Made by a program: the position numbers and the translations under genes. DNA of 43,619 nt. Source: a virus. The notes under the pieces are model-generated. The model was not told the DNA's origin. It was given only the letters and a program-made list of their open reading frames with translations, and ran no database searches. The stretch spans positions 1 through 43,619 of IMG/VR virus record IMGVR_UViG_3300022925_000050, one strand, 5' to 3'. This document shows, piece after piece, positions 12,878 to 16,974 of the stretch. The stretch's first letter is position 1. The number at the start of each line of letters is the position of its first letter.

Positions 12878-14521
12878 TTATCCTTCGCAACTTTTACAGT
12901 CATTTAATTTTCTATAGAATGCTTGCGCTGCATTCGTCGAGTGCTGGTAATACAGGCCTTTGATTCCCGACTCCCAAGCGTAAATTAGGAGTTTATTTAT
13001 TTCTTTTGCTGGAGTTTCGGGAGGTATTGTAATATTCAAGCTTTGACCCTGATCAATGTATTTTTGACGCTGCGCCGCTTGAGTTACAATCTCTTTTTGA
13101 GAGATTTCTGCAAAAGTTCTAAACACTTGTTTCTCTTCTTCAGAGAGGCATTTTAATTGCTGGACTGATCCATTATTTCTAAGAATAGAAGCCCAAGTCT
13201 CTTCAGAGTCTTCCCCCTTTTCTCTTAATAATTTTTCTAGAAATGGATTTTTAATTGTAGATTTAAACTTTGCCAAATCTTTAACATAATAATTTGACTT
13301 ATACGGCTCAATACTTTGAGAGACTTGACCAAGAATAAACGCAGAAGAGGTATTTGGGGCTACAGCCATTCTCGTAGCCCATCTCTCTCCATAGCCTTTC
13401 AACAGAGGAGGTTCTCCATACTCTGCTGCCGCTCTTTTTGAAGCTTCCAAGCTTTGTTTGTGGATTGTCTCGAAAACTTCTGCGTTTAGCATTTGAGCCT
13501 CAAGGGACTCAAAAGGAATCATCTTGCTTTGAAGAAGAGAATGATAACCTGTTGCTCCTAACCCGATTGCTCTTTGATTCTCTGAGAATCTAACTGCTCT
13601 CTCTAGGTGTTTTACGCCTTTTGCTTTTTGAATGAATTCCTCTAAAACGGCATCTAAAAATAAGCACAAAACTTCAACAGCATCTGTGTCCTTCCACTCA
13701 TCGTAATTCAGTAAGTTCATGGACGCAAGACAGCATACAAATGATTCGTCTGGAGACGAAGAAAGCTGGATTTCATTACATAAATTTGAAGCATTGATTC
13801 TTCTTCCTTTGTCTTTGTAAACTTGAGGAGCTTGATTATTTGCGTTTCCTACAAAGTGAATATACGGAAGCCCCGTTTCTGATCTAGCTTTAAGCACAGC
13901 AGCCCAAATTTCACGTTTTTCAGTGTCTCCGTCAATCATGGATTTCATCCATTCGTCTTCTACACAAACCCCTGTGAAGAGATGTTGGATAGGATGTCCT
14001 TCTTGTTTGATTTTAAGAAATTCTTTAATATCTCCATGATCAATTGGAAGATAACAAGCCATTGCTCCTCGTCTTACAGAACTTTGCTTGCAAGTGTCAA
14101 CTAAAGTATCAAAAATTTTCATAAAGGAAACGGACCCATCTGACTTGCCTCCTGTCGAAATTTCTGCTCCTCTATGTCTTATGTCTCCAAAGTATGCAGA
14201 AGTGCCTCCTCCCATTTTTGTCATCATGCCGACTTCTGAAGTCGTATCTAAAATAGACTCCATATTATCACTTACGTAGCTTCCAAAGCAAGCGATGGGC
14301 AGACCTCTCTCCTTTCCAAAGTTAGCCCACTCTGGAGAAGAAAATAAGAAGTGACCTTTAGATGTGTAATCTAAAAACTTTTCTACATAACCTTCCTTTT
14401 TTAAAAATCTATTGGCCGTTTTTGCGAGTTCTTCAATTCTTTTCTCTGGACTCTCTCCTTCTGAAAGGTATCCGTTTTCTAGAAAGATTCGTGATTTTTT
14501 ATTAAGCCAAGGGTATTTCAT
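12878..14521 (-). CDS. nrdA: class I ribonucleoside-diphosphate reductase, alpha subunit (short form)
   Basis: This is a 547-residue protein that reduces NDPs to dNDPs with the beta subunit encoded upstream. Key residues: C78 (PIACFGSYV), the block INASNLCNE with N246, C248 and E250, the partner cysteine in FVCCLASMNL (263/264), the radical-path tyrosine pair in GLYYQHST, and a C-terminal redox pair in CKSCEG. It is shorter than E. coli NrdA (about 760 residues): the N-terminal ATP-cone is absent, so dATP feedback is probably lost, a common trait of phage enzymes. It converges with the fibre gene, the two stops being 2 bases apart. Confidence 0.9.
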   Translation of the reverse strand: MKYPWLNKKSRIFLENGYLSEGESPEKRIEELAKTANRFLKKEGYVEKFLDYTSKGHFLFSSPEWANFGKERGLPIACFGSYVSDNMESILDTTSEVGMMTKMGGGTSAYFGDIRHRGAEISTGGKSDGSVSFMKIFDTLVDTCKQSSVRRGAMACYLPIDHGDIKEFLKIKQEGHPIQHLFTGVCVEDEWMKSMIDGDTEKREIWAAVLKARSETGLPYIHFVGNANNQAPQVYKDKGRRINASNLCNEIQLSSSPDESFVCCLASMNLLNYDEWKDTDAVEVLCLFLDAVLEEFIQKAKGVKHLERAVRFSENQRAIGLGATGYHSLLQSKMIPFESLEAQMLNAEVFETIHKQSLEASKRAAAEYGEPPLLKGYGERWATRMAVAPNTSSAFILGQVSQSIEPYKSNYYVKDLAKFKSTIKNPFLEKLLREKGEDSEETWASILRNNGSVQQLKCLSEEEKQVFRTFAEISQKEIVTQAAQRQKYIDQGQSLNITIPPETPAKEINKLLIYAWESGIKGLYYQHSTNAAQAFYRKLNDCKSCEG

Positions 14522-14552
14522 ATTAATTAAAAGTATATGCGGGTTTTTGTCT

Positions 14553-14595
14553 CTGAGTAAGGGGGCGTTGTAGCCTTCACCCCTCCCGCTCTCAG
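14553..14595 (-). other. GC-rich hairpin between nrdB and nrdA
   Basis: The 93-base gap holds a strikingly GC-rich block. Two nested stems are visible: CTGAG/CTCAG (14553-14557 with 14591-14595) and AGGGG/CCCCT (14560-14564 with 14580-14584). No T-run follows on either strand, so a simple terminator is unlikely. It may modulate the nrdB:nrdA ratio by attenuation or RNA processing. Confidence 0.45.
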
Positions 14596-14614
14596 TCGGC
14601 TCCTCTGTGGGAAA

Positions 14615-15601
14615 TTAAAACAAGTCGTCTGCTGTAATGGATTTATTTTTCCTAGAATAAGCTGTTGGTCTCTGGTCAAAGAAATCGTAATGAGCGTCAC
14701 TAAACAGTTCTTCATTAAACCAATTAGTTTTTTCTAGTTCTGATTTATCCACATCGAAGATTGCATCTAATTTTATGCCGATTAACGACTGATTTAAACG
14801 ATCTTTTACAAATTCTTTAACTTGGTCCTTTTTAATAAAGTCTGTGTCTCCATTATCAAAAATCCAATCTAAAACTTTTTCTTCTGCCTTGTATGCTTTT
14901 TGGCAATACTTCACAATTAAAGATTTTAATTCATCTGTAAAAAACTCAGGATGCTCTTCGTGAATTTGGTTAATCAGGAAAGTGCCAAACTGTCCATGAA
15001 TGGCTTCTTCTTTGGATGTCGCAGCTACAACATTATTAATATCTTTTAAGAATTTCCTATGCTTGTTAAAAGACATAATGATAAAGAACTGAGAAAACAG
15101 AGATACATTTTCAATAAAAAGAGAAAACAAAATAATTGACTTTACGAAATTCTCTTCCAGTCTTGCGTTAGAAAATTCTTTATACTTCTTTAAGTAGTTG
15201 TGTCTATCTAAGATGACGGGAGTATCATACATTTTTTCAAACTCTTCATTTAGGCCCATCACTTCTAAAAGGTGGCTGTATGCTCTTTCGTGGCGAACCT
15301 CTGACTCAGAGAAGGTTGCTCCAACCATGTTAATTTCTGGCAAAGGCATGTGAGTATGCAAATGCCCCCAAAAAGTTTTTACGCTAACCTCAATTTGAGA
15401 AATAAGAAGAAGGCACTTCTTTACGATTTCTCTTTGGTAATCATCTAGTTCAGTATGAAATTGCTGAACGTCTGTTGTAAAGTTCCATTCTTTATGAGTC
15501 CAGTAGGACTCGTTTATCGCGTCTGTAAACTCTTCGCATTGCGGATAGTTGAATGGTTTAAAATGCTCTCTTGGTGTAAAAAGGGATTGTGATTTACTCA
15601 T
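14615..15601 (-). CDS. nrdB: class I ribonucleoside-diphosphate reductase, beta subunit
   Basis: This is a 328-residue ferritin-like protein carrying the metal-radical cofactor for NrdA. The ligand set is visible: E71 in ISQIEVSV, E101 and H104 in SESEVRHERAYS, E in FIENVSLF, and E/H in KEEAIHGQFG. The tyrosine Y108, placed E-x-x-H-x-x-x-Y as in E. coli Y122, is present, so a tyrosyl radical is likely. The first ligand is Glu where E. coli NrdB has Asp. The C terminus NKSITADDLF is the usual type of tail that docks into the alpha subunit. The start codon overlaps the stop of the upstream gene by one base (TAATG). Confidence 0.9.
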   Translation of the reverse strand: MSKSQSLFTPREHFKPFNYPQCEEFTDAINESYWTHKEWNFTTDVQQFHTELDDYQREIVKKCLLLISQIEVSVKTFWGHLHTHMPLPEINMVGATFSESEVRHERAYSHLLEVMGLNEEFEKMYDTPVILDRHNYLKKYKEFSNARLEENFVKSIILFSLFIENVSLFSQFFIIMSFNKHRKFLKDINNVVAATSKEEAIHGQFGTFLINQIHEEHPEFFTDELKSLIVKYCQKAYKAEEKVLDWIFDNGDTDFIKKDQVKEFVKDRLNQSLIGIKLDAIFDVDKSELEKTNWFNEELFSDAHYDFFDQRPTAYSRKNKSITADDLF

Positions 15602-16074
15602 TATACTTTGTCTAATTCAGAAATTTTCATATTATAGCAATCACCCCTGACAGTAAAGCCGTTGTCCCCATCTTTGTCTCCCTTTTTCAAAAATCTTGCT
15701 TGCTCAAAATAGTCTTTTGAAGCTTTTACTCCCAAAAACCAACCAACGGTTAAATCGTTTTTCACCCTAACGAAAGCATACATATCACAATCTTGCTTTC
15801 TGCTAAAACCAGATACAGAACAATCGTAATAATCCTTCGGCATTACTGAAGTTTGCTTAGATTTAACGTCGACCTTTGTTCCATCCTCTAATACCAAATC
15901 CCAATCAAACGTATTGCTAATTTTGCCACCCAAGACTTTTTGTGCAATAAACTCTCCAACAAATCCTGCCAAATTTCCGCCCCCGTTTAATATGCTTTTT
16001 CTAATTCGGCCCATTTCTTCTGCCTTTTTTCTGGCATCAATGAGCATTTTTTGAGTTACGGTTACTTCAATCAT
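15601..16074 (-). CDS. PD-(D/E)XK-fold protein, first gene of the nrd operon
   Basis: This is a 157-residue protein. NLAGFVGEFIAQKVLGG supplies the helix-1 Glu, FDWDLVLEDGTKVDVKSKQT the D...DxK pair of a PD-(D/E)XK nuclease, and DMYAFVRVKNDLTVGWFLGV a following core strand pair. Such small proteins are common in phages near nucleotide metabolism; the target is unknown. It has a perfect-spacing TTGACA/TAAAAT promoter 8 bases upstream and is directly followed by nrdB. Confidence 0.6.
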   Translation of the reverse strand: MIEVTVTQKMLIDARKKAEEMGRIRKSILNGGGNLAGFVGEFIAQKVLGGKISNTFDWDLVLEDGTKVDVKSKQTSVMPKDYYDCSVSGFSRKQDCDMYAFVRVKNDLTVGWFLGVKASKDYFEQARFLKKGDKDGDNGFTVRGDCYNMKISELDKV

Positions 16075-16082
16075 TGCTGCCT

Positions 16083-16111
16083 ATTTTACACGATTAATTC
16101 TCGTTTGTCAA
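16083..16111 (-). promoter_or_regulatory. sigma70-type promoter of the nrd operon
   Basis: On the minus strand TTGACA (16106-16111), 17 bases, TAAAAT (16083-16088), 8 bases, ATG (16074). The leader would be about 2 bases. Confidence 0.75.
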
Positions 16112-16170
16112 GATATTAAATAAGAAAAACATTAGGACGCCGCAAGGGTAATTTTAATCCATGTTTTTGT

Positions 16171-16224
16171 AAAAAAACGAGAAGAATGCGTTGGTAAAAA
16201 AAACTGATTAAAGCATTCTTCTCG
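16171..16224 (-). terminator. Rho-independent terminator of the hairpin-array RNA
   Basis: On the minus strand a perfect 12-bp stem, CGAGAAGAATGC (16213-16224) with GCATTCTTCTCG (16178-16189), loop of 23 bases, is followed directly by seven T (16177-16171). Confidence 0.75.
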
Positions 16225-16249
16225 TCCTCCTAGCGAAGCGTAGGAGGCT

Positions 16250-16333
16250 CGTATAGGTTACGTCGTATAGGTTACGTCGTATAGGTTACGTCGTATAGGT
16301 TACGTCGTATAGGTTACGTCGTATAGGTTACGT
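16250..16333. repeat. six perfect tandem copies of a 14-bp repeat
   Basis: The unit on the plus strand is CGTATAGGTTACGT, repeated six times with no mismatch. Each unit is itself a hairpin: CGTA, five-base loop, TACG, one linker base. On the transcribed minus strand the loop reads ACCTA. A seventh, enlarged unit with the same ends lies at 16407-16439 (CGTATAG and GTTACGT separated by 19 bases). Confidence 0.95.
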
Positions 16334-16443
16334 ATTCCAGCTTCGCTGGTCTCGGAAATCAAGATTTCCTCGTATTCTTTTGCAGATAGGGACTGATGAC
16401 TGAATCCGTATAGTGCCGAAGGACCGTTACCCGTTACGTATTA

Positions 16444-16472
16444 AGTATAGATACGTAAAAACATCTTGTCAA
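16444..16472 (-). promoter_or_regulatory. consensus sigma70 promoter of the hairpin-array RNA
   Basis: On the minus strand TTGACA (16467-16472), exactly 17 bases, TATACT (16444-16449). This is the best promoter in the window and points away from dut into the repeat region; no coding sequence begins after it. The -10 is flanked by an inverted repeat TACGTAT (16435-16441) / ATACGTA (16451-16457), a possible operator. Confidence 0.75.
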
Positions 16473-16496
16473 GCGTTTTTTTAATTTATTTTGTAA

Positions 16497-16525
16497 TTGC
16501 ATTTTTTGTTTTATAGTCGTATGAT
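16497..16525 (+). promoter_or_regulatory. sigma70-type promoter of the dut operon
   Basis: TTGCAT (16497-16502), 17 bases, TATGAT (16520-16525), then 5 bases to the dut ATG at 16531. The predicted mRNA is leaderless. It is divergent from the hairpin-RNA promoter, with 24 bases between the -35 boxes. Confidence 0.5.
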
Positions 16526-16530
16526 AATGC

Positions 16531-16974
16531 ATGGGACATTACGTAGAAATTTTAAACGAAAAGTATCTGGAGCAGCCGAAACAAGGGGATGCTGGTATAG
16601 ATTTAATAGCTAGGGATGATCCTGAATTTATCACAGATAAAGACGGTGATGTTCTTTTCGTTGAATACAATACTGGAGTAAGAATTGCGCCTTCATCTAA
16701 TTCAATGCATGGTCTTGTGTTTCCCCGATCCAGCATTAGCAAATATCATCTGTCACTCTGCAACTCTGTAGCAGTTATTGACTCAAGCTATCGTGGCGAA
16801 ATTAAACTAAGGTTCAGAACACTGAAGGAAATGGGCAACTTTTATCAAAAAGGAGATAAGATCGGCCAACTTATTTTCTTTTCCCCTTGTGTCCCTGAAT
16901 TAATTTTTGTTGACAAATTCGAAAATAAGACTACGCTAAGAGGTGAAAAGGGCTTTGGCTCCACAGGAAGATAA
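16531..16974 (+). CDS. dut: dUTP diphosphatase
   Basis: This is a 147-residue trimeric-type dUTPase that hydrolyses dUTP to dUMP, keeping uracil out of DNA. All five family motifs are present: DAGIDLIA, FPRSSISKY, SVAVIDSSYRGEI (Ser where most have Ala/Pro-Asp), KGDKIGQLIFF and the phosphate-binding RGEKGFGSTGR at the C terminus. It heads a plus-strand operon and is followed after 4 bases by a dNMP kinase, a partner in dNTP supply. Confidence 0.92.
   Translation: MGHYVEILNEKYLEQPKQGDAGIDLIARDDPEFITDKDGDVLFVEYNTGVRIAPSSNSMHGLVFPRSSISKYHLSLCNSVAVIDSSYRGEIKLRFRTLKEMGNFYQKGDKIGQLIFFSPCVPELIFVDKFENKTTLRGEKGFGSTGR

Follow-up and report, generated by a model that had tools for sequence, protein, structure and literature searches.

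The window analysed here, that is, the whole stretch of 43,619 nt that makes up the IMG/VR record IMGVR_UViG_3300022925_000050, is assigned to a tailed phage, as a fragment, because it encodes a tape-measure protein, a DnaB-like helicase, a primase, an RNR, a dUTPase and a sigma-like protein. No DNA similarity to annotated phages was found for it, and protein searches retrieved no cultured phage of the clade. Positions 16075-16530, a stretch of 456 bp devoid of genes, separate two divergent operons. On the minus strand, the first operon starts with a gene without any family match, 'endo' (15604-16074), followed by nrdB (14618-15601) and nrdA (12881-14521). On the plus strand, the second one opens with the dUTPase gene (16531-16974) and continues with genes for a dNMP kinase, the sigma-like protein and a glycosyltransferase. 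This order, nrdA-nrdB-(endo) to the left and dUTPase-dNMP kinase-sigma-glycosyltransferase to the right of the gap, is conserved in many contigs of uncultured phages. The related lineages compared number about a dozen; in them, coding sequence is missing from the gap for hundreds of bases, and its strong promoters and repeats differ by lineage.

In the window, the gap harbours on its minus strand a non-coding transcription unit (within 16171-16472), which consists successively of a promoter, a 5' part, a GGAAATC/GATTTCC hairpin, a CCAGC-GAA-GCTGG hairpin, a series of tandem repeats, a CCTCCTA/TAGGAGG hairpin and a terminator. The sigma-70-type promoter, TTGACA-17-TATACT (16472-16444), matches the consensus at 11 of 12 positions and is one of just five sites that score at least 11/12 over both strands of the window; from its position, transcription would start at about 16437. 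The intrinsic-terminator-like end (16170-16225, minus strand) is made of a perfect 13-bp stem (16225-16213 paired with 16189-16177), a 23-nt loop and the run TTTTTTT, and is absent from a standard terminator scan because such a scan is limited to loops of 3-8 nt. No ORF of more than 32 aa overlaps the unit. The sequence-only reading, which had described a stand-alone unit with this promoter, a perfect terminator stem of 12 bp followed by seven T, and no reading frame, agrees with these data except for the length of the stem.

Six identical 14-bp repeats (TCGTATAGGTTACG; CGTAACCTATACGA on the minus strand) occupy positions 16249-16332 and place an ACGT core every 14 bp. They are flanked on one side by the hairpins GGAAATC-aa-GATTTCC (16354-16369) and, on the minus strand, CCAGC-GAA-GCTGG (16337-16349), and on the other side by the hairpin CCTCCTA-GC-GAA-GC(G)-TAGGAGG (16226-16247), the arms of which resemble Shine-Dalgarno and anti-Shine-Dalgarno sequences. 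Besides this chain of six ACGT cores, two TACGTA sites, spaced by 17 bp, enclose the -10 box of the array promoter, one located just downstream of the box (16435-16440, ACGT at 16436) and the other inside the promoter spacer (16452-16457, ACGT at 16453). Next to the promoter, an A+T-rich segment (16473-16530) contains a weak promoter for the dUTPase gene, TTGCAT(16497)-17-TATGAT(16525), and the A+T content is no more than 76% over 16455-16530 versus 64% for the window overall. A promoter scan also assigned to endo, nrdB and nrdA a promoter of their own on the minus strand, TTGACA-17-TAAAAT (16111-16083), and the array unit is therefore not simply the leader of these genes.

The 267-nt transcript expected from the unit folds better than its dinucleotide shuffles (z -4.2, and z -4.7 for the whole region), although the repeat units themselves form marginal hairpins. 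As RNA, a lone repeat hairpin amounts to only -0.5 kcal/mol, the probability that a unit forms its own hairpin ranges from 0.02 to 0.70 across the six units (at most 0.25 in five of them), and the minimum-energy fold of the array prefers nested longer-range pairing. The earlier image of a transcript almost fully folded into separate hairpins is thus only partly right. Moreover, the plus strand of the locus folds as strongly as the minus strand, as is expected for palindromic DNA. The heptamer GCGAAGC, of which nine copies occur in the gaps for 0.28 expected, is found in the gap of the window (16226-16349) and in L009, L076, L081 and L043. The oligonucleotide d(GCGAAGC) is a DNA mini-hairpin of exceptional stability, and its occurrence would be consistent with hairpins extruded by supercoiled DNA at a control site.

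The only close relative of the window, L003 (4.8 kb, 95-97% identical), possesses the same unit with an unchanged promoter and with seven repeats instead of six. Over the 4.3 kb compared, 3.3% of the sites differ, and the longest run free of substitutions, 373 bp in length (16164-16536), covers exactly the array unit, while the adjoining 96 bp contain 8 changes. Within this run, the differences are limited to a single A of the terminator loop, a single T lying upstream of the promoter and the extra 14-nt repeat, which itself departs from the other copies by one base; all stems are identical. Such a pattern suggests, from these two sequences, that constraint acts on the whole unit. A recombination patch is possible as another cause of the run, because positions 13998-14845, which comprise nrdA and part of nrdB, are also nearly unchanged. 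This second stretch, almost without substitutions between phages that are otherwise 3-8% divergent, suggests a recombination patch in its own right. As a separate observation, nrdB of L003 is interrupted by a deletion near 14947-14975.

Two more distant types of relatives display the locus in other forms. In G001, the nrdB of which is 81% identical to that of the window, the equivalent place and direction are occupied by a promoter TTGACA-17-TATAAT (12/12), a 12-bp terminator stem with a T run and then a separate nrdB promoter, so that a promoter and an intrinsic terminator enclose a non-coding unit in both phages, and the stand-alone character claimed for the unit is supported beyond the window. 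The repeats of G001, CGTA-N5-TACG, keep the 14-nt spacing; their loops (ACAGU, AAUGU) are unlike the ACCUA loop of the window, and the GC-rich hairpins are different too. The folding z is about -6.0 on each strand, and an ACGT follows directly after the -10 box. Since the tandem array and the promoter/terminator layout are common to the window and G001, the chance that the feature arose by accident is negligible; its non-accidental status does not by itself make it a feature of the RNA level. In phages of the L007 type (nrdB 87% identical to that of the window), the hairpin-rich gap contains a single CGTA-TTCTA-TACG copy (loop UUCUA) and a weak candidate promoter only, and no terminator was found in it. 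A 40-bp promoter segment (ACAAAAA..GCAATTACAAAATAAA..GCTTGAC), partly taken from the A+T-rich segment of the window, is shared with L007: the local alignment scores 57, and the best of 200 shuffles 44. It lies in opposite orientations in the two phages (16455-16510 in the window, L007:2834-2900) and is the promoter of the array unit in the window and of the dUTPase gene in L007. Neither G001 nor L007 could be aligned to the window reliably enough for compensatory changes, and L007, L008 and L031 are too close to each other to be informative. The CCTCCT/AGGAGG hairpin, from which a link to ribosomes or mRNA had been proposed, does exist in the window; its arms are kept neither in G001 nor in L007, and the Shine-Dalgarno connection was dropped. 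G001 (L020) also contains other palindrome arrays, made of CGTAACTCGTT..AACGAGTTACG, TGTTCATTTGAACA and TATATCGC repeats, in the small-gene region of its left end (140-225, 856-1105, 1963-2160).

In 19 pooled gap sequences, the words ACGTA/TACGT occur 60 times, against 3.4 predicted by the remainder of each contig, an enrichment of about 17-fold that stems partly from tandem copies and partly from base composition, single-gap dinucleotide shuffles explaining part of it in several lineages. Together with the promoter word GTCAA, they are the leading 5-mers of the pooled gaps. They are enriched at least 2-fold in 14 of the 19 gaps, CGTA being enriched in 17. Outside this gap, intergenic stretches of the window contain no more than one such site each, as is also true of most contigs examined. 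The sites are absent from the gaps of L140, L042, L043 and L048. The divergent gap of L140 (L140:3960-4250, plus strand), noncoding and without ACGTA, shows long paired stems after TTGACA-17-TAAATG, with a z of -1.2 for the whole gap; the alignment that included L140 was poor.

The most regular arrangement is found in a distant group, in which five of the six distinct sequences (L166, L175, L184, L191 and L201; L193 is identical to L191 here, and the pattern of L197 is partial) have exactly four ACGT sites that succeed one another at intervals of 17-19 bp after a TTGACA-16 promoter. This chain was reached by 0-1 of 2000 shuffles. The first of the sites comes about 15 bp after the predicted start, and the series is followed by 44-48 bp of 78-95% A+T; by analogy, this is the layout expected of iterons with an adjacent unwinding element. 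The promoter points in the opposite way to that of the window, no terminator is found there, and structure-based covariation is close to nil. Relatives keeping the repeats without promoter, terminator or paired stems had been named beforehand as evidence against an RNA, and the distant group corresponds to this description in part: the repeats are retained with no terminator and almost no covariation, while a promoter, though reversed, is present. A weight matrix built from the sites of the distant group gave 3 weak hits in the gap of the window for 0.8 expected and no strong site, and the idea that the repeats are one shared longer motif was rejected. The proposed homology of the repeats between the window and the distant group relies on where they lie and on a core of 4-5 bp; it does not come from an alignment.

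Database searches did not associate the unit with any known family. In Rfam, nothing was found at the gathering threshold, including the Csr/Rsm families, and at E up to 5 only a weak match to 6A appeared, lying upstream of the unit's promoter. The exact triple-repeat pattern, searched in about 85,000 bacterial and archaeal genomes, returned simple-repeat hits only, mostly from high-GC genomes and none similar, and there is therefore no sign of a host array that the phage would mimic. Viral matches to this pattern in L134 and L135 were set aside as belonging to an unrelated phage, in which dense palindromic repeats (TTATAGCTATAA, CGTAGATTCTACG) lie beside a DNA methyltransferase-like gene (L134:1100-1300, L135:4990-5190). 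TIGR-type guide arrays were dropped, the repeats having no spacers between them. A retron or Cas connection was likewise discarded: among the proteins scanned no such gene was found, as the first reading had noticed.

The reading to be preferred, at somewhat less than an even chance, is that of a lineage-specific iteron or operator array, most likely a transcribed replication origin or a control hub. According to this proposal, the element would be the version, proper to this lineage, of a conserved cis-acting control locus that a large clade of uncultured tailed phages would share, placed between the divergent RNR and dUTPase-kinase-sigma operons. From its position and composition, we infer that the array of ACGT-core repeats, adjoining an A+T-rich segment and strong host-type promoters, would be loaded like iterons by a DNA-binding protein of the phage or the host. 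Its main role would be that of a replication origin of which the repeats are also transcribed. Since the -10 box of the array promoter lies between two ACGT sites, the protein would likely also regulate the divergent promoters as a second role, and the pair of sites suggests a feedback on the promoter of the unit itself. Tandem short direct repeats, as expected for an iteron origin, are indeed present both in the window (six of 14 bp) and in the relatives (four ACGT at 17-19 bp). The shift from six to seven repeats while nearly everything else is fixed, the similar folding of both strands and the inversion of the promoter segment were all counted in favour of an origin or hub. Counted against it were the period of 14 bp in the window versus 17-19 bp in the distant group, and the terminator and GC-rich hairpins, which an iteron array would not need. 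No initiator protein was recognized among the genes scanned. The cumulative GC skew reaches its minimum at the locus in three records, and merely a local minimum in G001. This skew depends on the direction of the genes, with another reversal at 26.7 kb, and the third-position skew gives no replication signal; GC skew was consequently rejected as evidence for an origin, being confounded with gene direction.

The closest parallel to a transcribed origin is offered by phage lambda, which possesses four 19-bp iterons near the pO promoter, responsible for the short OOP RNA, and in which the activity of pO, more than OOP RNA itself, affects replication (PMC3985674). The locus resembles the lambda origin in its tandem short repeats, its nearby promoter yielding a short terminated noncoding RNA and the A+T-rich DNA alongside, and the four repeats at 17-19 bp of the distant group are close in number and spacing to the lambda iterons. 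However, it is intergenic, between divergent operons, whereas the origin of lambda lies inside the initiator gene, and the window differs by its 14-bp period, its 6-7 copies, the inclusion of the repeats in the transcript and the lack of an O-like initiator among the scanned genes, its origin role being a prediction. A short terminated RNA is probably made from the array unit and may be important mainly through the act of transcription.

A trans-acting phage sRNA, in which host RNA polymerase would make a transcript of about 267 nt titrating a host protein or nuclease at a dose tuned by the copy number, is a possible but rather doubtful alternative. It accounts well for the promoter, the terminator and the separate downstream promoter found in the window and G001, for the folding excess of both, and for the 373-bp run that spans the unit, although that run could be a recombination patch. 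The change from six to seven repeats between near-identical phages is reminiscent of pseudo-ToxI, in which escape phages raise the number of 36-nt repeats from 1.5 to 5.5, ToxI having both a promoter and a stem-loop terminator (PMC3475682). Like these type III antitoxins, the array is phage-borne and its copy number varies between close phages, but the repeat measures 14 nt instead of 36, and no pseudoknot unit, sequence match or known toxin gene accompanies it. The CsrB/RsmZ type of multivalent decoy, initially suggested for the unit, is likewise a free-standing RNA that combines several similar hairpins with a terminator; the comparison does not hold for the repeats, the ACCUA loops of which lack GGA (present only in stem and linker), are not conserved in relatives and belong to units too weak for stable stem-loops. 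The marginal stability of the repeat hairpins, the equal folding of both strands, the different loops in the window, G001 and L007, the missing terminator and weak promoter candidate of L007, and the distant relatives in which repeats persist but the RNA architecture does not all tell against an sRNA. Its particular form, a tandem RNA of 14-nt units acting in trans as a decoy or antitoxin, without known family and replaced in each lineage by a different short RNA, which would suggest an arms race with host factors, is unlikely.

Sister phages of the clade do possess a well-supported structured RNA at the head of the corresponding operon, which was counted in favour of the sRNA reading. In L042 (905-1200, plus strand) and L043 (880-1190, plus strand), a structured RNA of about 300 nt lies upstream of the dNMPK...nrdB-nrdA operon and differs between these two sequences by 11 compensatory base pairs, both partners being changed in each; it has no match in Rfam. 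It resembles the unit of the window by heading the corresponding nucleotide-metabolism operon and by its own promoter-like sequence, but differs in sequence and fold and is deprived of tandem repeats and ACGTA sites. Judged by these changes, it appears better supported as an RNA than the element of the window.

Less probable than a trans-acting sRNA is an operator array only, in which a regulator bound to the ACGT sites would switch the divergent early and nucleotide-metabolism operons, with neither origin nor functional RNA. The bracketing of the -10 box in the window, the ACGT right after the -10 box in G001, the sites starting about 15 bp past the predicted start in the distant group and the usual location of the locus between divergent operons would all be explained. 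Yet the unit of the window terminates before the next promoter, so that its regulation would control no gene, and four to seven regular sites together with a block of 78-95% A+T exceed the needs of a simple operator. Selfish or neutral REP-like palindromic repeats, piling up in noncoding DNA with no dedicated function, are very improbable: the additional arrays among the left-end small genes of G001 and the rapid change of repeat sequences between lineages would suit them, but constraint is indicated by the fixed four-site spacing in five sequences, by the concentration of the sites in one syntenic gap and by the lack of any substitution between the window and L003 across the unit.

With respect to the iteron or control array favoured here, the comparison also illustrates that what looks in a single genome like a remarkable hairpin array can be a transcribed array of DNA sites. 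If the RNA proved to be functional, it would represent a new tandem-repeat phage RNA. The ACGT-core repeats with their lineage-specific spacing provide concrete candidate binding sites. In tailed phages of this widespread group, of which no cultured member was found, the gap between the RNR and dUTPase operons would constitute a conserved but fast-changing control locus that is a candidate for the replication origin.
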